From Actinokineospora inagensis DSM 44258 (GTDB taxonomy: Bacteria > Actinomycetota > Actinomycetes > Mycobacteriales > Pseudonocardiaceae), in assembly GCF_000482865.1 (NCBI RefSeq), contig NZ_AXWW01000028.1:45728-109727 (forward strand): DNA of 64,000 bases, in the 5' to 3' direction. Both the position numbers and the translations under genes were made by a program. Positions 47,137-57,236 of the stretch are shown piece after piece. How positions within the stretch are numbered: the stretch's first letter is position 1; each line of letters starts with the position of its first letter. The notes under the pieces are model-generated. The model made no database searches and was not told the DNA's origin. It saw only the letters and a program-made list of their open reading frames with translations.

Positions 47137-47862
47137 GTGTCGAACCCGGCTGAGCAGCCCCCGAATCAAGCCTAGTCGAGGCCACCGACGAACTGGGGCT
47201 CTCGGACGCGGCCTGTGGACAACCAGTGGCTGTGTGGAGCGCGGTCGTGGCTACGCCGGTGTCGACCCCAACAGACCAGTGGACCCTCCGGCGTGATCAG
47301 CAGGATCGGGGAGCGACGGGGGCGTGGTGGACGACCTGCCGATCAGACTGTCGCCGTGCGGAAGGGCACCGTAGGTCAGCCGACCTGAGCAGCCCCCGAA
47401 TCAAGCCTAGGCGGGCTGGGCGACAAAGTGGGACGTCGCGATGGCAGTTGTGGACGAACAACCGCCCTGTGGACAATCCACGAACACAACCGGCGATCAA
47501 CCGGCCCACCGGTGAATCGGTTGTCCACAAACAAGACGGCTGTCCACAGCGGCCAAGCAGCCTGCACTCTCCACACCCGTCCGGCCATACGTTGGGCCTC
47601 GGGGGATCCCGGTGTCGGCGGGGAGCAGGGCAGGGGTCAGTTGAGTGTAGTGGCAGGCGCGGCAGTGTGGGGGCGGGGCGAGTGGGGGTGTGGACAAACG
47701 GGGGGCATATGACGCACCGGCCGGCTCTCCCTCCCCCGAGAGCGCCGGCCGGTGCGTCGGGCCGCACCCCCAATTTCTCCCGCCGCGGCCCAGGGTGACG
47801 GTGAGTCGGTCACCCTGCGGGGGGAGGATGCCGGCATACGGCCGGGTCCGGCTAAGCGTTCA
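47137..47862. other. Non-coding region with DnaA-box-like nonamers and a 25-bp direct repeat
   Basis: No supported gene. TGTGGACAA/TTGTCCACA occurs perfectly at 47214-47222, 47468-47476, 47521-47529 and 47689-47697, with one-mismatch copies at 47449-47457 and 47540-47548. A 25-bp sequence ending CGAATCAAGCCTAG is present at 47151-47175 and again at 47386-47410. The same nonamer is the repeated box of the 140-bp elements at 50.9 and 57 kb. Confidence 0.7.
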
Positions 47863-50664
47863 CTAAACGTCGGTGGGGAGGGCGGCCAGTCCGGCTTGGA
47901 CGGCGTCGGCGGCCGGGGATTGGACCAGGCGGTAGAGCTCCAGGGCGAGGGTGAGTTCGACCCGGGCCTCGGCGATGTCGCCGCGGTCGCGGTGGACGCG
48001 GGCGAGGACTTCGCGGGCGAACGCCTCGGTGAGGTCGAGGCCGTTGGCTTCGGCGAGGTCGACGGCTTCGCGGGCGTGGGTTTCGGCGGCTTCGAAGATG
48101 GTCAGCTCGTGTTCGAGTTCGGCGAGGTTGGCCAGGGCGATGCCGACGAAACCGAGGTCGCCGACCTGCCGGTAGAGGGCCACGGCGCGGGCCTGCGGGC
48201 CGACGGCTTCGGCGGGGGCGCCCAGGTTCCGGTGGACCTGCGCGATGTTGTTGAGCAGGTTGGCCTCGCCGAGCCGGTAGCCTGCGCGGTTGGACAGGTC
48301 GAGGGCTTTGCGGTAGCCGGCGAGGGCCTCGACGTAGCGTTTTTGGCCGTAGAGGGCGCTGGCCACGGTGTTGAAGCCCATCGCCATCAGCTTCGTGTCG
48401 CGCAGTTCGGTGGCGATGGCGACGGCGCGTTCGGCGTCGGCGACGGTCTCGTGTTCGCGGTCGAAGCGGGTGAGCAGGACGCAGCGGCTCAACCGCATCA
48501 GCACCTCGCCGCGGCGGTCGGCGGCGGCCTGGGCGGCGGCGAGACCGAGGCGCAGCACGTGTTCCCAGTCGTCGCGGCGGGAGCGGACCCGGCGGTACTC
48601 GCTGGCCATCCTGGCCAACTGCCACACCTGGGTGTGCAGCCCGGCCTTCGCGCCCGCCTCGACGGCGGCGACCACGTTGGGCCACTCGCGTTCGAACCAG
48701 GCGAGGGCGTCTTCCCGGCTGTCCAACTCGGGGCGCGGCACGTCGACGTCGGTCGTGGCGTGGTCGAGGTCGTCGGCGGCGTCGCGCAGGTGGCGGCGGC
48801 TCTGGTCGGCGGCGACCAGGTAGTGCCGGAGGACGGCGGGCAGCGGGTCGGTGCCGGTGCCGAGTTCGCGGGCGTAGAGCCGGACCAGGTCGTGCGCGCC
48901 GAACACGTCCGGGTCGGTCTCGGTGACCAGGAACAGCGCGGCCAGTCCGCGCAACCGCTCCCTGGCCGCGGCCACCGGCAGGTCCCCCATGGTGGCCAGC
49001 AGGTGCGGGCCGAAAGTCGGACCGGGCACGGCGCCGACCAACCGGAGCACGTCGGTGTGGCCCCGGTCCAGCCCCCGGACGGTGAGGTCGAGGGCCGCCC
49101 GCACCCCCGTGTCGACGTCCTGCACGCGCAGCGCGCCCAGCCGGGTCCGCTCGTCGGCGAGCTCGGCGACCAGCTCGCGCAGTGACCACTGTGGACTGAC
49201 GACCAGCCGGGCGCCCGCGATCCGCAGCGCCAGCGGCAGGTGGTCGCAGAGCCGGGCGAGGCGGGCCCGCAGGCCGAGCTCGTCCGGCGCGGGCGGGCCA
49301 GCGGCGTGCGTGATGACCGCCTCGGCCTCGTCCGGCGGCAGGGTGCCCAGCACCCGCGGCGCGGCGCCGTGGGTGACCAGGCCGTCGAGCCTGCGCCTGC
49401 TGGTGACCACCACCATCGACCCCGGTGAGCTGGGCAGCAGCGGCCGGACCTGGTCGGAGTCGCGGGCGTCGTCGAGGACCACCAGCACCCGCCGCGCGGC
49501 CAGCAGGGACCGGTAGAACGCGGCGCGCTCGGCCTGGTCGTCCGGGATGTGCTCGGCGGCCACCCCGAGCGCGAGCAGGAACCGGGCCAGGACCTCGGCG
49601 GGTTTGGCCGGGTCGTGCCGGGGGTCGAAGCCGCGCAGACCGGCGTAGAGCCGCCCGTCCGGGAAGTCCGCCGCCGCGCGGGCACCCCACACCAGGGTGA
49701 GCGCGCTCTTGCCGACCCCGGCGGGACCGACCAGCACCCCGATGGCGGGCGCGGTGCCGTCCGCGTTGTCGCGGATCTGGTCGAGCCACTTGAGTTCCTC
49801 GGCGCGGCCCGCGAACCCCGGTGGCGCGGCGGGCAACTGGGCCGGGGTGAGCACGCCGACCCGTGGCGCGATCACCGGCGCGGGGCGGGATTCGAGCAGC
49901 GTCGAGTCGTCGCGCAGGATGCGGCTGTGCAGTTCGCGCAGGCCGGGACCGGGGTCGAGGCCGAGCTCACCGGCGGCGCGGTGCGCGAACCGCTGGTAGA
50001 TCTCCAACGCGGCCGCGCGCCTGCCCGAGCGGTAGAGGGCCAACACGAGTTGACCAACCAGGTGTTCCCGGAACGGGTGCGTGTCGACGAGGGCGGCCAG
50101 CTCACCGATGACCTCGTCGTGGCGGCCGAGTTCGAGGTCGGCGTCGATGCGCGCCTCCAGCACGGTCAGCCGCAACTCGGCCAGTTCCGGCGCGCGGACC
50201 CGACCGCCGATGCCGGAAAGCTCCGGACCGCGCCACAACGCCTGCGCCCGACCGAGCAACTCGGCCCGCGCCGCGGCGGGCCGGTCGCGCGACTCGGCGA
50301 GCAACGCCCTGGCCAGCGCCACATCAATGCGTGCCTCGTCGACGACCAGCCGGTAACCGGGACCGGCGGTCTGGATCCTGGTCGCCCGCGATGAGTCCAC
50401 TGTGGACAGCCAGCGGCGCAGCCTGGACACGTAGCCCTGCACGATGGTGCGGGCCGTCGCGGGCGGTTCGTGGTCCCACAGCACATCCATCACGTGCTCG
50501 ACGGAGACCACCTGGTTCGGCTCCAGCAACAGCAGCGCCAGCATGCCACGCAATCCCGGCCCACCCGGGACCACCGTGTTCGCCCCCACCAGCGCGCACA
50601 CCGGGCCCAGCACGCAAAACCGCGGTCCGCTCTGCTCCGGATCCGCGAGCGCGACATGCGCCAC
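47863..50664 (-). CDS. SARP/AfsR-type regulator with NB-ARC and TPR domains
   Basis: A roughly 933-residue regulator. Residues about 15-100 form an OmpR-like winged helix (LVGANTVVPGGPGLRGMLALLLLEPNQVV, in part). The bacterial transcriptional activation domain follows (VLEARIDADLELGRHDEVI; HPFREHLVGQLVLALYRSGRR). Then comes an NB-ARC ATPase with P-loop GPAGVGKSALT, Walker B LVVLDDARDS and LRIAGARLV, and C-terminal TPR repeats. AfsR-like proteins activate secondary-metabolite genes in response to ATP-dependent oligomerisation. GTG 50664 is favoured; the frame stays open to 50766. It stands alone here; its targets are not apparent. Confidence 0.87.
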   Translation of the reverse strand: MAHVALADPEQSGPRFCVLGPVCALVGANTVVPGGPGLRGMLALLLLEPNQVVSVEHVMDVLWDHEPPATARTIVQGYVSRLRRWLSTVDSSRATRIQTAGPGYRLVVDEARIDVALARALLAESRDRPAAARAELLGRAQALWRGPELSGIGGRVRAPELAELRLTVLEARIDADLELGRHDEVIGELAALVDTHPFREHLVGQLVLALYRSGRRAAALEIYQRFAHRAAGELGLDPGPGLRELHSRILRDDSTLLESRPAPVIAPRVGVLTPAQLPAAPPGFAGRAEELKWLDQIRDNADGTAPAIGVLVGPAGVGKSALTLVWGARAAADFPDGRLYAGLRGFDPRHDPAKPAEVLARFLLALGVAAEHIPDDQAERAAFYRSLLAARRVLVVLDDARDSDQVRPLLPSSPGSMVVVTSRRRLDGLVTHGAAPRVLGTLPPDEAEAVITHAAGPPAPDELGLRARLARLCDHLPLALRIAGARLVVSPQWSLRELVAELADERTRLGALRVQDVDTGVRAALDLTVRGLDRGHTDVLRLVGAVPGPTFGPHLLATMGDLPVAAARERLRGLAALFLVTETDPDVFGAHDLVRLYARELGTGTDPLPAVLRHYLVAADQSRRHLRDAADDLDHATTDVDVPRPELDSREDALAWFEREWPNVVAAVEAGAKAGLHTQVWQLARMASEYRRVRSRRDDWEHVLRLGLAAAQAAADRRGEVLMRLSRCVLLTRFDREHETVADAERAVAIATELRDTKLMAMGFNTVASALYGQKRYVEALAGYRKALDLSNRAGYRLGEANLLNNIAQVHRNLGAPAEAVGPQARAVALYRQVGDLGFVGIALANLAELEHELTIFEAAETHAREAVDLAEANGLDLTEAFAREVLARVHRDRGDIAEARVELTLALELYRLVQSPAADAVQAGLAALPTDV

Positions 50665-50865
50665 TCGGTACCACCCCCCGATCGGACCGACTCCCCTAAG
50701 CCGGTTCTTTCGCGCTCCCGCGACAAACCTAGGGCGTATCGGAACCCGTGGGCGCCGTTGTGGCACTAGTCAACCGGATGGCCTAATGACTATGGACCGG
50801 CGATATGCCCCGCCCAACGGAATTCCCCGGATGAACGGCCCAACACCACCGCCGCTGGCCCGTGG

Positions 50866-51005
50866 TTGTCCACAACCAGTTGAGTTGTCCACAGCCGGCG
50901 CCCACCCCCTCTTGACAGTTCCCGTTCCGCGCTATCGTCAGGAATGGGCGACCGGCCCCCGGGTGGGTGGGGTCTGGCTTGGGGGCGGACGGGGCTGAAG
51001 TCAAG
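50866..51005 (+). promoter_or_regulatory. Repeated 140-bp promoter/leader element, copy 1
   Basis: TTGTCCACA at 50866-50874 and 50885-50893 (19 bp start to start), TTGACA 50912-50917, 15-bp spacer, TATCGT 50933-50938, CAGGA, ATG 50944, a GC-rich hairpin region (GACC pairing with GGTC) and a terminal GTCAAG at 51000-51005. Same order and spacing as the copies at 56916 and 57096. The rest of 50665-51844 holds repeats but no supported larger gene. Confidence 0.7.
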
Positions 51006-51138
51006 CGCTGGATCGGGGGATGTCGGCGGGCGGGATGTCCGCGGCCAGTCGGGATGTCGGCGACCGAGAGATGAGGCGGGATCGGGAAGGTGTCGGGTCG
51101 GGTGGCCTGAGCTACGCGCGTGGCGGCCAGGTTATTGA
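50944..51138 (+). CDS. Micro-ORF of element copy 1, 64 residues
   Basis: ATG lies five bases after the -10-like hexamer, so any transcript would be leaderless. The peptide begins MGDRPPGGWGLAWGRTGLK, resembling the peptides of copies 2 and 3 in the first 13 residues, but reads on to 64 residues because it lacks their stop after residue 28. Expression is not demonstrable from sequence. Confidence 0.35.
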   Translation: MGDRPPGGWGLAWGRTGLKSSAGSGDVGGRDVRGQSGCRRPRDEAGSGRCRVGWPELRAWRPGY

Positions 51139-51290
51139 CCAGCGTCCACGCGCAGCGGGCACCCCGTAGTCCCACGTCCGGGCATAGCGGCGTGTTGTTG
51201 GCCCACGCCCACGCCCAGTGGCCGTCTTATTGGCCCGCGTCCACGCGTAGCGGGCATGTTGTTCACCCGCATCCCTCTTGGCGGGGCTTG
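51131..51290. repeat. About five imperfect 31-32-bp tandem repeats
   Basis: Units starting near 51132, 51164, 51195, 51227 and 51259 share ttattggcccgcgtccacgcg-like sequence and agcgggca-like ends. No credible gene covers them. Downstream, 51291-51844 shows no supported gene. Confidence 0.6.
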
Positions 51291-51844
51291 GGCCGCACCG
51301 GCGTGGGTGGCCGCCTGTCTGCTTGTCGAGATGGTGATGCTTCTTGGCAGGCGGAGAAGATTCCGCGTCAATGCGAAGTCGGGCTCCGAGTTCGGCGGGC
51401 TCGGGTACGGCGCGGAATGACCGGGTGTGACACTTCCGCCGCACTTGTGGCCCACCGGGTCCGGTCTCGTGGTTGCATTGGACGTCCGGGAGGAGCGCGC
51501 CATGGCGGCTGTACCCGGCAAGACCTTGACCTCGCACGGCTGGCCGTCGCGGACAACTCGGCCACGTCCGCCTCGTGGGTTCCCCGCGCGGCGACCGAAT
51601 TGTCGAACTAGGCCTTGACCTGCTGGACGAAGTCGCCGCGGGGGCCAGCGGCCGAGGTCGGGTGAGCTGGATCGGCCCCGCGGCCCGACCGATCCCGACT
51701 CGGTGGGCGCGGGGCCGTACTCCGCGTGAGTTGGTCCACAGCACGTCGGGCTCACCCCGAGTGGGAACTCGACCAGCTCTTGATCAACCGTGCGCGAAGC
51801 GCGGGGCAATGGTAACAGATGGGTCACACGTGATCACGGACGGG

Positions 51845-52744
51845 TCACCTGGTTAGCGCTGCGAACGTTCTCGCGGCGATGAAGTCCGGGCGGGGTGCGG
51901 GCGCGGCGTACGGGGTGACCAGGGGGTTCTCCACCGAGTTGAAGACCACGAAGATGTTGGACCTCGGGAACGGGGTGATGTTGTTGCCGGAACCGTGCAT
52001 CAGGTTCGAGTCGAACAGCAGCGCCGAACCGGCCGGGCCGGTGAACTGGTCGATGCCGTGTTCGGCGGCCAGCGCGGTGATCGCGGCGCGGCTGGGGACG
52101 CCGATCTCCTGTTCGGTCAGCGACACCTTGTAGTGGTCGGACGGGGTCTCGCCGACGCAGGGGACGAAGGTGCGCTGGGAGCCGGGCAGCACCATCAGGC
52201 CGCCGTTGAACGGGTGGTTGTCGGTGAGCGCGATGGACATGCTCACCGCGCGGGGCAACGGCATACCGTCCTCGGCGTGCCAGGTCTCGAAGTCCGAGTG
52301 CCAGTAGAAACCCTTGCCCTTGAAGCCGGGCATGTAGTTCACCCGGCTCTGGTGCACGTAGACGTCCGAACCGAGCACCTGGCGAGCGCGGTCGAGCACC
52401 CGTGGGTCGCGCACCAACTCCGCGACGAGGTCGCTGGTCCGGTGTACCTCGAAGATCGAGCGAACCTCGTTGGACTCCCGTTCGACGATGGTGCGTTCGT
52501 CGGCGCGGATCTCGTCGTCGCTCGCGAGGCGGTCGAGTTCGGCGCGGAACGCCTGGACCTCGCCGGAGCTGAGCAGATCGGTGTACCGGGAGTGGCCGCG
52601 GGTGTCGTGCGCGGCGACGGTCGCGGCGTCGATCGGGCCGTCGATTCCGCCCCACACGGTCGGTTCCGGTCGCTCGACGGTCGGTGCGGGCTCGGGCGTG
52701 CGGGTGCGGTAGTGGTCCTGGACCCGGGTTTCGGTGAGCGTCAT
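51845..52744 (-). CDS. ectD: Ectoine hydroxylase EctD
   Basis: A 299-residue Fe(II)/2-oxoglutarate dioxygenase that converts ectoine to 5-hydroxyectoine. The iron facial triad is visible as H-x-D in [11 protein letters not shown] and the distal His in [14 protein letters not shown]; the ectoine-binding region [17 protein letters not shown] matches EctD. It overlaps ectC by 4 bp and is last in the operon. Confidence 0.95.
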
Positions 52745-53136
52745 CGGGTCTCCTCGGTGATCAGCGGGTAGACCCCGTTCTCGTCGTGCACCTCCCGGCC
52801 GGTGACCGGCGGGTTGAAGACGCAGACCGTGCGCATCCGGCTGCGCACCGTCAACTGGTGGTGTTCGTGCCCGTCGAGCAGGTACAGCGAACCCGGCGCC
52901 AACCGGTGGATCTGGCCGGTTTCCTTGTCCAGCAGCTCACCCTCCCCCTCGACGACGAACACGGCCTCGACGTGGTTGGCGTACCAGAACTCGTTGACCC
53001 TGCCCGGGTACAGCACGGTCTCGTGCACCGAGAACCCGACGGCGTCCTTGGCCAGGATGATCCGCTTGCTGCGCCAGTTCTCGGCCTGGACGTCGCGGTC
53101 GGTGTCGGTGATCTCGTCCAGCGTGCGGACGATCAT
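52741..53136 (-). CDS. ectC: L-ectoine synthase EctC
   Basis: A 131-residue cupin that cyclises N-gamma-acetyl-diaminobutyrate to ectoine. Begins MIVRTLDEI; contains [21 protein letters not shown] (in part), and [16 protein letters not shown] with cupin metal residues. Fourth-to-last step in an intact ectABCD operon, 24 bp after ectB. Confidence 0.95.
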
Positions 53137-53160
53137 CGGTTGCCTCCTCCAGGATGGGCT

Positions 53161-54408
53161 TTACCGGGTGGCGGCCACGGACTCGGTGAGGATCCGCAAG
53201 CCGTCGTCCAACTCGTCGTCGGTGATGGTCAGCGGCGGCATGACCTTGGCGACCTCGCCGTCCGGGCCGGAGGTCTCCATCAGCAGGCCACGCTGGAAAG
53301 CGGCCGAGCAGACGGCACCGGCGGTCGCGCCGTCGGCGAAACGCAGGCCACGGGCCAGACCACGGCCCTTGGCGCGCAGGTCGGCGTCCGGGTGGGCGTC
53401 GGCGATGCCGAGCAGGACCCGTTCGACCTGTTCCCCCTTGGCCAGCGTGCTTTTCTCCAGGGTGTCGTCGGTCCAGTACGCGCGCAGGGCCTCGGTGGAC
53501 GCGACGAACGCCGGGTTGATGCCGCGGAAGGTGCCGTTGTGCTCGCCCGGCTCCCACACGTCCAGGTCCGGCCGGATCAGGGTGAGCGCCAGCGGCAGGC
53601 CGAAACCGCCGATGGACTTGGACAGGCACACGATGTCCGGGGTGATGCCCGCGACCTCGAAGCTGAAGAACGGGCCGGTGCGGCCGCAGCCCATCTGCAC
53701 GTCGTCAACGATCAGCAGGATGCCGTGCCGCTCGCACAGTTCGGCCAAGCCGCGCAACCACTCCACACGCGCGGCGTTGATGCCGCCCTCGCCCTGCACG
53801 GTTTCCACGATGACAGCGGCGGGCTCGTTCAGGCCGCTGCCGCTGTCGGCGAGCAACCGCTCCAGCCACAGGAAGTCCGGGACCCGGCCGTCGAGGTAGT
53901 TGTCGTAGGGCATCGGGGTGGCGTGCACCAGCGGGACGCCCGCGCCGCCGCGCTTCATGGAGTTGCCGGTGACCGACAGCGCGCCCAGCGTCATGCCGTG
54001 GAAGGCGTTGGTGAAGTTGACGACCGACACGCGGCCGGTCACCTTGCGGGCCAGCTTCAGCGCGGCCTCGACCGCGTTCGCCCCGGCCGGACCGGGGAAC
54101 ATGACCTTGTAGTCCAGCTCGCGCGGGGTGAGCACCAAGTCCCGAAAGGACTCCAGGAAGTCGCGCTTGGCCACGGTCTGCATGTCGAGGGCGTGCGTGA
54201 CGCCGTCGCGCAGGATGTAGTCGACCACGGCCTGTTTGAGCACCGGGTTGTTGTGCCCGTAGTTGAGGGCGCCCGCACCGGCGAAGAAGTCCACATAGGA
54301 CTTCCCGGACTCGTCGTAGAGGTGGCTGCCGACCGCGCGGTCGAACACGACCGGCCAGCCCCGGCTGTAGCTGCGAACCTCGGATTCGAGCGTCTCGAAC
54401 ACGGTCAT
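53161..54408 (-). CDS. ectB: Diaminobutyrate-2-oxoglutarate transaminase EctB
   Basis: A 415-residue class III PLP aminotransferase making L-2,4-diaminobutyrate from aspartate semialdehyde. Features are FDRAVGSHLYDESGKSYVDFFAGAGALNYGHNNP (in part), VDDVQMGCGRTGPFFSFE and the PLP Lys in CLSKSIGGFGLP. ATG 54408 is used. It lies 41 bp after ectA. Confidence 0.95.
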   Translation of the reverse strand: MTVFETLESEVRSYSRGWPVVFDRAVGSHLYDESGKSYVDFFAGAGALNYGHNNPVLKQAVVDYILRDGVTHALDMQTVAKRDFLESFRDLVLTPRELDYKVMFPGPAGANAVEAALKLARKVTGRVSVVNFTNAFHGMTLGALSVTGNSMKRGGAGVPLVHATPMPYDNYLDGRVPDFLWLERLLADSGSGLNEPAAVIVETVQGEGGINAARVEWLRGLAELCERHGILLIVDDVQMGCGRTGPFFSFEVAGITPDIVCLSKSIGGFGLPLALTLIRPDLDVWEPGEHNGTFRGINPAFVASTEALRAYWTDDTLEKSTLAKGEQVERVLLGIADAHPDADLRAKGRGLARGLRFADGATAGAVCSAAFQRGLLMETSGPDGEVAKVMPPLTITDDELDDGLRILTESVAATR

Positions 54409-54449
54409 CGGAAATGCCTCCCCAGCAGTGGTTCGGGCCATGACGGGCA

Positions 54450-54962
54450 TCAAGCGAGGACAGGTCGCCGCACCAGCGGGCCGATCCGGTAAAGGTCCTC
54501 GGCCGCGTGGTCGTCGGGGAAGTGGTCGGCGGCGAACAGGTCTCCCCGGCGCAGCAGTGCCCCGTGTCGCTGCGCCAGCGCGCGGAACAACGCGATCGAG
54601 GCGGCGTTGTCGGCGGTGATGGTGGTCTCCAGGTGCCGCACACCGCGCGGGGCGAGCCGCTCCAAGAGGTGGTCGAGCAGACTGCCCGCGATGCCGCGTC
54701 CGCGCTGGCTGTCGTCGACCGCGATCTGCCACACCACCACGGTGTCCGGCGCTTCCGGCCGGACGAAGCCGATGACGAACCCGACCGGTCGACCGGCGAC
54801 CCTGGCGACGGCCGAGGTGGCGGCGAAGTCGCGGCACCACAGCAGGTAGGCGTAGGACGAGTTCAGGTCGAGCGTGCGCGAGTCGCGGGCGATCCGCCAC
54901 AGCTCGGAACCATCCTCAGTGGACGGCTCGGTGATCGCGATGTCGTGCGTTTCCCCGGACAT
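54450..54962 (-). CDS. ectA: Diaminobutyrate acetyltransferase EctA
   Basis: A 170-residue GNAT acetyltransferase that acetylates diaminobutyrate at the gamma nitrogen. Contains LDLNSSYAYLLWCRDF and acetyl-CoA loop DSQRGRGIAGSLLDHLL, typical of EctA. First gene of ectABCD; no EctR regulator is adjacent. Osmotic induction is expected from other actinobacteria but no specific operator was recognised. Confidence 0.95.
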   Translation of the reverse strand: MSGETHDIAITEPSTEDGSELWRIARDSRTLDLNSSYAYLLWCRDFAATSAVARVAGRPVGFVIGFVRPEAPDTVVVWQIAVDDSQRGRGIAGSLLDHLLERLAPRGVRHLETTITADNAASIALFRALAQRHGALLRRGDLFAADHFPDDHAAEDLYRIGPLVRRPVLA

Positions 54963-55048
54963 ACCTCAGGAACGTAACAGCGATGGACGGCCGCGTCCGA
55001 ACGAGCGGATCGCGGAACCCGGTGCTCACCTGGGGATTCGGCGGATCA

Positions 55049-55088
55049 CCGGTGAGGAGGGCAACAGTGCGGTTGTCCTCCTCACCGG
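55049..55088 (-). terminator. Terminator of the aldo/keto reductase gene
   Basis: A 17-bp stem (55049-55065 with 55072-55088, one G-T pair) and 6-nt loop, 16 bp beyond the reductase stop. It separates that gene from the ectoine operon on the same strand. Confidence 0.85.
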
Positions 55089-55103
55089 CGTCGTGTTAAC
55101 GGG

Positions 55104-56132
55104 TCAGCCCGCTTCCCGGGACTGCGCCCAGATATCGATGCCGGAGTCGACCGCGTGCCGGTCGATCTCGGCCAGTTCGCCGTCGGTCAGCGGCGGCGCG
55201 TCGACGGCGGCCAGGTTCGCCTCCAACTGGGCCACGGAACTGGCGCCCACCAGGGCGGAGGTGACCCGCGGATCGCGCAGCACCCACGCGATGGCCAACT
55301 GCGCCAAGGATTGGCCGCGCTGCTTCGCGACGGCGTTCAGGCCGCGCACCCGGGCCAGGTTCGCCTCGGAGATCAGGTCGGGCGAGAGCGATGAGTGGCG
55401 GCTGGCGCGCGAACCCTCGGGGATGCCGTCGAGGTAGCGGTCGGTCAGCAGGCCCTGGCCGAGCGGGGAGAACGCGATGCAGCCCGCGCCGACGTCGTCC
55501 AGGGTGTCCAGCAGTTCCGGCTCGATCCAGCGGTTGAGCAGGGAGTACGACGGCTGGTGGATCAGCAGCGGCACACCGGCGTCCTTGAGCAGTTCCGCCG
55601 CTTCACGAGTCGCGGCGGGCGAGTACGAGGACACGCCGACGTAGAGCGCCTTGCCCTGCTGCACGGCGGTGACCAGCGCGCCAACGGTTTCCTCGAGCGG
55701 GGTGTCCGGGTCGAAGCGGTGCGAGTAGAAGATGTCGACGTAGTCGAGGCCGAGCCGGGCCAGCGACTGGTCCAAAGAGGACAGCAGGTACTTGCGCGAG
55801 CCCCACTCCCCGTACGGCCCAGGCCACATGTCGTAGCCCGCCTTGGTGGACACGACCAACTCGTCGCGGTACGGCTTGAAGTCGGTGGCCAACACCCGAC
55901 CGAAGTTGGCCTCCGCGCTGCCGTACGGCGGTCCGTAGTTGTTGGCGAGGTCGAAGTGCGTCACCCCCAGGTCGAACGCCCGGCGCAGGATGGCCCGGCC
56001 CGGCTCGAACGGGCGGTCACCCCCGAAGTTGTGCCACAACCCCAACGACACCGGCGGCAGCTTCAACCCGCTGCGGCCGACCCTGCGGTACGCGGTGCGG
56101 TCATAACGACTGTCCTCGGCCCGATACGACAT
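55104..56132 (-). CDS. Aldo/keto reductase, YghZ/glyceraldehyde-3-phosphate reductase type
   Basis: A 342-residue TIM-barrel NADPH-dependent reductase. It has the catalytic Tyr loop in THFDLANNYGPPYGSAE, DLVVSTKAGYDMWPGPYG with the catalytic Lys (read as ELVVSTKAGY), YSHRFDPDTPLEETVGAL and the NADPH segment VGASSVAQLEANL. The WPGPYGEWGSRKYLLSSLDQSL stretch is typical of the YghZ subgroup, which reduces L-glyceraldehyde 3-phosphate and methylglyoxal. ATG 56132 with GGGAG upstream. Confidence 0.88.
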   Translation of the reverse strand: MSYRAEDSRYDRTAYRRVGRSGLKLPPVSLGLWHNFGGDRPFEPGRAILRRAFDLGVTHFDLANNYGPPYGSAEANFGRVLATDFKPYRDELVVSTKAGYDMWPGPYGEWGSRKYLLSSLDQSLARLGLDYVDIFYSHRFDPDTPLEETVGALVTAVQQGKALYVGVSSYSPAATREAAELLKDAGVPLLIHQPSYSLLNRWIEPELLDTLDDVGAGCIAFSPLGQGLLTDRYLDGIPEGSRASRHSSLSPDLISEANLARVRGLNAVAKQRGQSLAQLAIAWVLRDPRVTSALVGASSVAQLEANLAAVDAPPLTDGELAEIDRHAVDSGIDIWAQSREAG

Positions 56133-56163
56133 GGGACTCCCTTCGGTTCGACCCCATTCTCGC

Positions 56164-56757
56164 TCAGGAGTCCACATCGGTTCTGCGCGCGTACAGCACC
56201 TCTTCGTTGAGCTCGAGCCCGTTGACCACCCGCAGCGCGGCGACGACGGCGTCACCCACCAGGCTGGACGACACCTCGGGGTACTCGATGAGCAACGCGG
56301 TGTGGCCGTGATCCGCCGGGGTCTCGGTGACCGCGCCACGCAGGAAGCCGAACACGGCGGCCTTGCGGTCCGGGAGCGTGAGCGTGAGGCGGTCGCGGCG
56401 GATCGGGGTGAGTGTGGGGCTGAACAGGAGCGCGTAGAGGAGGTCTTTGGCGTGGCTGAGCAGGTCCTCGCCGGTGGTCGTCCGCTGCGCTGGGCTGATC
56501 ATCAGGCCGGGTGGTGGGGGTGTCGCCAGGCACTCGCCGCTGTCCCAGGCGCCCAGGTGAGCGGTGTGCTCGGCGAGGGTGGTGGTGTCCAGGTCGACTG
56601 GACGGGGGCGGTGAGGCGTGGACTGCGGGGCGACGGTGGCGAGCAGTTGGTCGACCAGCCACTCCCGGGGCTGCGCCATCAACTGGCTGCGCAGCGTGGA
56701 CGCGATCTCGCCGGGACCTGCGGATGCCTGGCGAACCATGTCGTCGAACCCGGACAT
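56164..56757 (-). CDS. Unknown actinobacterial protein, 197 residues
   Basis: ATG 56757 gives a 197-residue protein with a helical N-terminal part (MSGFDDMVRQASAGPGEIASTLRSQ, in part) and a C-terminal alpha/beta part (RDRLTLTLPDRKAAVFGFLRGAV; TALLIEYPEVSSSLVGDAVV). No signal peptide or membrane helix, and no family recognised. The frame is open upstream to 57054 but that part overlaps the repeated element and lacks coding bias. Divergent from element copies 2 and 3. Confidence 0.6.
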   Translation of the reverse strand: MSGFDDMVRQASAGPGEIASTLRSQLMAQPREWLVDQLLATVAPQSTPHRPRPVDLDTTTLAEHTAHLGAWDSGECLATPPPPGLMISPAQRTTTGEDLLSHAKDLLYALLFSPTLTPIRRDRLTLTLPDRKAAVFGFLRGAVTETPADHGHTALLIEYPEVSSSLVGDAVVAALRVVNGLELNEEVLYARRTDVDS

Positions 56758-56915
56758 GACCGGGAAGGTAGGCCGGGAGGACCACCGGACTCCAGCCACT
56801 TCACCCGATGGTGGCTGGTCGGCGCCTGACCTGCGCTCGGCTGTGCGCGGACCCGACGACCGTCGCGGGCTCGGTCTCACCGACCGAGATGAGGAGCGCG
56901 TCGCGCTTGGGCACG

Positions 56916-57055
56916 TTGTCCACAACCGGTCAAGTTGTCCACAGCCCGGTGTCGGGCGCTCTTGACAACTCGTTGTTCGCGGTACGTTCAGGAATGGGCC
57001 CCCGGCCCCCGGGTGGGTGGGCCCCTGCCTGGACCACGACGGCGGTTCCGTCAAG
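56916..57055 (+). promoter_or_regulatory. Repeated 140-bp promoter/leader element, copy 2
   Basis: TTGTCCACA at 56916-56924 and 56935-56943, TTGACA 56962-56967, 15-bp spacer, TACGTT 56983-56988, CAGGA, ATG 56994, GC-rich hairpin (GGGCCC pairing with GGGCCC) and GTCAAG at 57050-57055. Spacings are identical to copy 1. It lies tandem to copy 3; the 56758-57315 gap contains nothing else that I can identify. Confidence 0.72.
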
Positions 57056-57080
57056 CCAGCGGCGGGCCACGATCGGCTGA
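56994..57080 (+). CDS. Micro-ORF of element copy 2, 28 residues
   Basis: Leaderless-type ATG five bases after the -10-like hexamer. Peptide begins MGPRPPGGWAPAWTTTAV and ends after 28 residues, the same length as copy 3. Hydrophilic, Gly/Pro/Trp-rich, no membrane segment. Confidence 0.4.
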   Translation: MGPRPPGGWAPAWTTTAVPSSQRRATIG

Positions 57081-57095
57081 AGGCGGGCGCGGTGA

Positions 57096-57236
57096 CTGTC
57101 CACAGGCGGTCGGATTGTCCACAGTCCTGGGTGGCCCTCTCTTGACAAGCCGCGACCCGCGCTAGTTTCAGGAATGGGCCCCGGCGCCCCGGGTGGGCGG
57201 GCCCCTGGGGTGGGGCGGGGTGCGGCGAATGTCAAG
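57096..57236 (+). promoter_or_regulatory. Repeated 140-bp promoter/leader element, copy 3
   Basis: CTGTCCACA at 57096-57104 and TTGTCCACA at 57115-57123, TTGACA 57142-57147, 15-bp spacer, TAGTTT 57163-57168, CAGGA, ATG 57174, GC-rich hairpin and GTCAAG at 57231-57236. Spacing is the same as in copies 1 and 2 up to the ATG and differs by one base at the end. Confidence 0.72.

Follow-up and report, generated by a model that had tools for sequence, protein, structure and literature searches.

Twin DnaA-type boxes at a fixed distance from a promoter-like box: candidate origin-centred cassettes in Pseudonocardiaceae

Cassettes in the window and in its genome

The DNA examined here, referred to as the window, is a stretch of 64,000 nucleotides from the draft genome of Actinokineospora inagensis DSM 44258 (contig NZ_AXWW01000028.1, positions 45,728 to 109,727 of the forward strand). 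Its plus strand carries three copies of a cassette in which two DnaA-type boxes, nonamers of sequence TTGTCCACA, are followed at fixed distances by promoter-like motifs and a conserved core. The boxes start at 50866 and 50885 in copy 1, at 56916 and 56935 in copy 2, and at 57096 and 57115 in copy 3, i.e., 19 bp from start to start with 10 bp between the boxes. Five of the six match TTGTCCACA exactly, the exception being the first box of copy 3 (CTGTCCACA), which has one mismatch. TTGACA begins 46 bp after the start of box 1 in all three copies and is separated by a 15-bp spacer from TANNNT, after which come CAGGA and then ATGGG. The distance from the A of this ATG to GTCAAG is 56, 56 and 57 bp in copies 1, 2 and 3, respectively, and the offset between copies 2 and 3 is exactly 180 bp.

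In copy 1, the twin boxes occupy 50866-50874 and 50885-50893 (50866..50893). They are followed by the putative -35 box TTGACA at 50912-50917 and the putative -10 box TATCGT at 50933-50938, with the 15-bp spacer between them (50912..50938), and by the core from ATGGGC to GTCAAG at 50944..51005, with a predicted transcription start around 50944. Copy 2 has its boxes at 56916-56924 and 56935-56943 (56916..56943), its -35 box at 56962-56967, its -10 box TACGTT at 56983-56988 (56962..56988), and its core, again from ATGGGC to GTCAAG, at 56994..57055. For copy 3, the corresponding positions are 57096-57104 for CTGTCCACA and 57115-57123 for TTGTCCACA (57096..57123), 57142-57147 for the -35 box and 57163-57168 for the -10 box TAGTTT (57142..57168), and 57174..57236 for the core, ATGGGC to GTCAAG. 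An earlier note on this DNA had described this order and spacing, together with open reading frames (ORFs) of 28 codons in copies 2 and 3 and 64 codons in copy 1, and the coordinates re-read in the window agree with it on both points.

The nonamer is more frequent than expected in the window, which holds 21 occurrences of TTGTCCACA with at most one mismatch against 7.4 expected, a number reached in none of 100 shuffles. In the whole 7.28-Mb draft genome we found 152 twin pairs of the form TGTCCACA-N11-TGTCCACA (at most one mismatch), and a control with the reversed pattern gave 0. For 70 of the 71 exact twin pairs, a TANNNT motif lies 65-68 bp from the start of box 1, the background being 0.1% per offset, so that an exact twin box in this genome is practically always paired with a promoter-like box at a fixed distance. 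The genome thus holds more than 100 cassettes in which a promoter-like box stands at a set distance from two DnaA-box sequences. The three copies listed in the earlier note are all real, and the larger picture, i.e., two further core classes, the genome-wide number and the crowding at dnaA in relatives, was missed there.

Three cores, which we call A, B and C, share this one box-to-promoter layout. The class A core, the one of copies 1 to 3, consists of TTGACA, CAGGAATGGGC, a C-rich and then a G-rich stretch, and GTCAAG. Class B is characterised by TAGGCT-GGATTCGGGGGCTGCTCAG, and class C by TAGACTGG..TCGGGG.CGCCCCCCGGGA.GGGTGGGGGC, with neither TTGACA nor an ATG. Units were gathered with regular expressions that required TA...T, plus ATGGG for class A, and boxes with at most three or at most five mismatches; identity in the boxes, the -10 box and ATGGG is therefore partly by construction, and the -35 box, the spacers and the remainder of the class A core were not selection criteria. 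Among the stretches examined, the patterns matched 60 class A, 33 class C and 24 class B units, and 56, 31 and 11, respectively, when at most three mismatches over both boxes together were allowed. Tandem class A arrays with the 180-bp period also occur elsewhere in the genome (C4:165533 to 166253).

Two class B units lie in the window on the minus strand, starting at 47476 and 47241. The first (47385..47476) has boxes at 47468-47476 and 47449-47457 and TAGGCT as -10 box at 47404-47409, followed by TGATTCGGGGGCTGCTCAG. The second (47150..47241) has a weak box at 47233-47241, a box at 47214-47222 and TAGGCT at 47169-47174, again followed by TGATTCGGGGGCTGCTCAG. A further pair of twin boxes on the plus strand, at 47521 and 47540 (47521..47593), has TACGTT at +67 and none of the three cores.

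The motifs are kept and the sequence between them is near random. All 45 aligned class A units share the same -35 box, and mean pairwise identity is 0.88 in the initial part of their core. The 10-, 18- and 15-bp spacers of the same units reach 0.40, 0.47 and 0.59, where composition alone would give 0.31-0.35; the 29 class C units compared show the same picture, with spacer identities of 0.40 and 0.49. Identity in the boxes is 0.86-0.98, a value that is partly by construction. The statement of the earlier note that spacing is kept and intervening sequence varies is thus borne out.

One orthologous copy, shared by five genomes of a single genus and located about 10 kb from dnaA in G085, is strongly conserved. 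The element block varies at 7 of its 131 alignment columns, whereas the adjoining intergenic sequence on the upstream side does so at 106 of 130. Of the other flanks, the stretch immediately downstream has 22 varying columns out of 101; in the genes on either side the counts are 61 of 240 (upstream) and 21 of 268 (downstream). At these loci (L137, L138, L140, L141 and L146) a palindrome, CACAACCGGTTGTG, is conserved about 100 bp past the -10 box.

As for the neighbouring genes, copy 1 lies between a large AfsR-like regulator at 47863-50766 and minus-strand ORFs at 51845-54962, which, judged from their translations, we take to be the ectoine genes ectD, ectC, ectB and ectA. ARAGORN calls a 96-base tRNA-Asp at 55988-56083 within an ORF that is presumably an aldo/keto reductase; the call is probably a false positive.

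Occurrence in the family and position on the chromosome

Exact twin pairs were found in 88 of 150 sampled Pseudonocardiaceae genomes, each with between 1 and 75 of them. A sample of 296 genomes from the class gave 7 with such pairs, namely the window's own, one congener and five with a single pair. Since the twin-box pattern recurs in so many genomes of the family, local duplication does not account for it. The class A core of the earlier note is almost private to the window's genome: the class A covariance model (R2) gave strong matches there only and weak ones in 6 of 149 other family genomes. In a genome of the same genus (G119; L032, L101, L105, L110) a further twin-box core, AGGGGTTCCCC..GGGGACCCCTCGCGGGCG, with a strong hairpin, may take the place of class C.

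Class C is the widespread form. Its covariance model (R1), which like all models used here yields lower bounds on copy number, matched in 69 of 150 family genomes and 26 of 46 genera, with at least 36 matches in each of 12 family genomes and at least 74 in G030. Among 196 other genomes sampled from the class, the model had no class C match; the 20 of these genomes that were listed include no member of the family. A pattern scan of named genomes returned at least 106 stretches, among them from Kutzneria, Goodfellowiella, Kibdelosporangium, Prauserella, Streptoalloteichus, Lentzea, Allokutzneria, Actinokineospora, Saccharomonospora, Amycolatopsis, Actinosynnema, Umezawaea, Labedaea and Pseudonocardia. 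About 60 of 105 distinct named class C elements have a second box 18-20 bp upstream (at most one mismatch). Class C cassettes were also seen in L224, L256 (JOAA01000035.1, labelled Rhodococcus rhodnii NRRL B-16535) and L289 (CAJCJE010000381.1, labelled Melainabacteria), and these labels are probably wrong.

To place the elements on the chromosome, dnaA was located with TIGR00362, and class C was measured in seven single-contig genomes of six genera (G027, G142, G085, G057, G022, G023 and G034; the draft G030 was left out). The 98 elements crowd around dnaA: expressed as a share of the half-chromosome, 58 lie within 10% and 78 within 25% of it, and 5 lie beyond 50%. Median distances to dnaA were 0.36 Mb in G027, 0.66 in G142, 0.37 in G085, 0.35 in G057, 0.15 in G022, 0.07 in G023 and 1.41 in G034. 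A random-origin test gave, in the same order, p values of 0.012, 0.006, 0.002, 0.007, 0.023, 0.044 and 0.10 (combined 1.4e-7), so that the bias is individually significant in six of the seven genomes. Genomes G057, G022 and G023 were run after the pattern had emerged in the first three, and all 19 of their elements are at most 1.35 Mb away from dnaA. Crowding at dnaA is also seen for exact twin boxes (Kolmogorov-Smirnov p of 0.002 in G013, 7e-5 in G022 and 6e-4 in G034).

As a core-like control we used tRNA loci, of which 150 of 177 were listed. These are also origin-biased, and class C lies closer to dnaA than the listed tRNAs in G027 (p 1.4e-3) and G085 (p 1.1e-4). The positional claim is thus strong but not free of confounding with the core genome.

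A predicted DnaA-bound promoter and the rival explanations

The nonamer suggests a link to replication. Table 1 of PMC4285127 gives TTGTCCACA as the high-affinity DnaA box for both Streptomyces coelicolor and Mycobacterium tuberculosis, and five of the six boxes in copies 1 to 3 have this very sequence. The earlier note had named DnaA as one candidate for binding the nonamer pair, and it is now the best one. Five box-like sites, one of them exact, also lie 0.67-0.90 kb downstream of dnaA in the window's genome. We infer that DnaA is the predicted binder of the twin boxes.

With genes predicted by a simple caller based on GC by codon position, 101 of 104 units of the window's genome and 103 of 107 units from named genomes lie outside predicted genes. 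In this they resemble DnaA titration sites, which are non-coding and outside the replication origin, oriC; closeness to oriC, the other property of such sites, applies to class C in relatives (78 of 98 in the nearest quarter).

On this sequence evidence, we regard it as an even bet that the cassettes are origin-centred, predicted DnaA-bound promoters with titration of DnaA as their main function, gated non-coding transcription being the likely second half. Each box pair would bind two DnaA molecules, which may sit on one helix face because 19 bp is close to two turns. Transcription would start 5-7 bp past the -10 box and give a short non-coding transcript. The promoter could depend on bound DnaA because of the 15-bp spacer between -35 and -10 in class A and, in class C, because no clear -35 is present. 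Cassettes near oriC would form a sink for the initiator that is doubled soon after the origin fires; because they would be copied soon after initiation, free DnaA would fall at once. The promoter output could then report or adjust the DnaA level. A bolder version, which we hold only tentatively, is a family-wide governor of initiation: dozens to more than 100 cassettes of one geometry per chromosome, each a sink for two DnaA molecules and a switch for non-coding transcription, would signal how far they are occupied and double once the origin has fired.

Several observations weigh against DnaA-bound, origin-centred promoters. A simple consensus scan of the window found no sigma-70 promoter with a 16-18 nt spacer at the cassettes, their spacer being 15, and a T-run scan of the window found no terminator after the cores. 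According to PMC11317965, E. coli DnaA favours box pairs 2-3 bp apart, and the boxes here are 10 bp apart. The oriC of Kutzneria albida (K. albida) is reported to lack classic DnaA boxes (PMC4210621). In other genomes the layout is looser: 40 of 105 named class C elements have no second box within 10-49 bp, and TANNNT stands at the fixed place in only 15 of 54 twin pairs. Regarding position, the class C bias is not significant in G034 (p 0.10), and class C is not significantly closer to dnaA than the listed tRNAs in G142 (p 0.13). In 40 sampled G085 stretches, boxes are not concentrated toward the origin (6 in 340 kb against 5 in 460 kb, small numbers). Core genes surround oriC in Pseudonocardiaceae, according to PMC4210621 and PMC3469384, and the bias could partly follow from this. 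The origin placement covers class C and exact twin boxes in relatives, and not class A or the copies in the window, which comes from a draft genome. There is also no strand bias relative to replication (co-directional 19 of 35, 15 of 27 and 9 of 13), and we reject a replication-strand signal.

An improbable reading, although the best placed of the rivals, is that the cassettes are stand-alone small RNA genes under the control of DnaA or another regulator. The core would then be the RNA, its C- and G-rich runs would pair with targets, and the clustering at the origin would be an effect of dosage or a side effect. The conserved block does start near the predicted +1, class C is kept over 26 genera, and the GTCAA motif at the end of class A is also present in some class C units. 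Moreover, most class C units do not face the start of a gene. A downstream gene is present for 91 named class C units; 27 of them face a same-strand gene and 64 the 3' end of an opposite gene, and in the window's genome the numbers are 4 and 24 for class C and 4 and 10 for class B. A role as leader of the downstream gene is hence rejected for class C only; class A, with 26 same-strand and 29 opposite genes, shows no preference. What a small RNA gene accommodates poorly is three different cores behind one promoter layout, the absence of a terminator in the T-run scan, and the structural results below.

The search for RNA structure was largely negative. No match at or near threshold was found in Rfam, the single hit being a chance-level match to an unrelated family (E 1.3); the remark in the earlier note that no such family was known to it thus stands. 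For each class RNAalifold proposed four pairs, in which compensatory changes are practically absent. The earlier note had seen one hairpin pair change with pairing kept, and in the class A pairs such a both-sided change occurs once, in 1 of 57 sequences. An outer helix chosen by hand for each class shows no covariation above that of shuffles; the one for class A, eight pairs taken from the fold of copy 2 (columns 14-21 with 34-42), lacks any both-sided change. Folding energies of single sequences gave z below -2 in 2 of 9 correctly oriented stretches and were ordinary in the others; a tenth stretch, L127, was in the opposite orientation and is left out of this count. The earlier proposal of a hairpin or attenuator therefore lacks support from covariation and has little from energy, and we reject a structured RNA or attenuator. 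A possible G-quadruplex, made up of GGG runs and one-base loops that vary, was also noticed.

Dispersed mobile repeats, similar to repetitive extragenic palindromes (REP) or miniature inverted-repeat transposable elements (MITE), would have DnaA boxes by descent and would pile up at tolerant intergenic sites of the core region. We consider this slightly less probable than small RNA genes. It would suit the high and patchy copy number, the tandem arrays with their 180-bp period, the near confinement of class A to one genome, and the preference of class C for the 3' ends of opposite genes (64 of 91). REP and MITE copies are alike over their whole length, however, and here the inter-motif spacers are near random (0.40-0.59 in class A). 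The sharing of one box-to-promoter distance by three unrelated cores and the conserved orthologous copy in five genomes also argue against mobile repeats. Viral contigs gave no match to the class C core, and copies 2 and 3 had none in plasmids, which also counts against an origin from phages or plasmids. The twin TGTCCACA pair itself is present in 32 viral contigs (loci L302-L333), two of which carry three pairs each.

It is also conceivable, at long odds, that the nonamer pair is the operator of a regulator other than DnaA that activates these promoters. The 10-bp spacing, the sampled boxes in G085 and the K. albida report would be easier to reconcile with such a protein. On the other hand, the nonamer is exactly the actinobacterial DnaA box, the cassettes are positioned around dnaA, and TTATCCACA, an E. 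coli-type box, replaces TTGTCCACA in some loci, e.g., in five orthologous loci of one genus.

One gene behind twin boxes, the cell-division gene ssd, also speaks for DnaA rather than another regulator. Two DnaA-type boxes, 19 bp apart, stand before it: five of five candidates picked by eye match septum-site protein Ssd (TIGR03815), and these loci (L031, L043, L044, L118 and L122) come from five genomes and four genera, one genus belonging to another family of the order. Loci L033, L045 and L046 resemble them in appearance. Other protein genes found behind twin boxes in relatives encode DUF4192, YraN and a polyprenyl synthase. In L053-L056 the twin boxes stand directly before a gene, with the start codon 79 bp from box 1 in L053 and L054; the L053 product is DUF4192 and the others look alike. 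These four loci possibly represent a leaderless DnaA-box promoter.

The idea of the earlier note that the cassettes drive leaderless micro-ORFs encoding a Gly/Pro peptide has become very improbable, and we reject the peptide on the variation of frame and stop among 58 class A copies. Frame lengths range from 3 codons to over 40, and 28 codons is the length in 8 of the 58. Two copies go out of frame within ten codons, one has its stop at codon 4, and differences between copies alter residues. A conserved frame and stop, as in leaderless small proteins, is thus not seen, and classes B and C have no such start, class C lacking an ATG there. The ATG and the first base of the -10 box are indeed 11 nt apart in 58 of 58 class A copies, and a leaderless start at the ATG would fit this geometry, but the ATG is no independent evidence because the collecting pattern required ATGGG. 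In some relatives, twin-box promoters do lead into genes, with a start codon 77-81 bp from the start of box 1. Neither a peptide nor a structured RNA is thus supported, and transcription from a promoter that needs help may still occur.

Relation to known systems

It is already known that DnaA-box sites outside oriC limit initiation. Non-coding, oriC-proximal DnaA-box clusters outside oriC are reported to be part of initiation control in Bacillus subtilis (Okumura et al. 2012) and in Streptomyces (Smulczyk-Krawczyszyn et al. 2006). These reportedly are a few clusters of several boxes, whereas here we find many two-box cassettes with a promoter-like box. The 6C RNA of actinomycetes has runs of six cytosines. 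The cassettes are likewise actinobacterial intergenic elements with six-cytosine runs, but give no 6C match in Rfam. The E. coli loci datA and DARS contain sites for IHF and Fis. Like the cassettes, for which binding is predicted, datA, DARS1 and DARS2 are non-coding chromosomal DnaA-binding sites according to PMC12371093; unlike the cassettes, each is a single locus of several boxes, with no repeated cassette or fixed promoter.

Another likeness is to DnaA as a transcription factor, where boxes also stand upstream of a promoter (review PMC8203912; double boxes in PMC11317965). The double boxes of E. coli are 2-3 bp apart in the latter source, compared with 10 bp here. The text of the review contains no mention of sRNA, small RNA or non-coding transcripts. 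In the literature searched, which excluded most subscription papers, no description of origin-centred, family-wide two-box promoter cassettes was found.

How actinobacteria hold replication to once per cycle is an open question, and for mycobacteria PMC5720831 states that no homologues of known DnaA regulators have been identified. The cassettes represent a natural, countable and deletable set of sites with a built-in promoter-like box in an antibiotic-producing family, in which titration and DnaA-dependent transcription would be directly testable. The twin-box layout before ssd further hints at a wider DnaA regulon.

The closest comparison is with the origin-proximal boxes of E. coli. Its DnaA boxes are enriched toward oriC (PMC12371093), and in a model described in PMC9640692 titration can keep fast-growing cells from re-initiating too early only if the sites lie near the origin, a prediction that at the time did not fit the E. 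coli data. Both there and here, DnaA boxes accumulate toward oriC. What differs is the form: in E. coli single boxes are spread over the genome, whereas in this actinobacterial family paired boxes, a promoter-like box and a conserved core are combined in dozens of intergenic copies.

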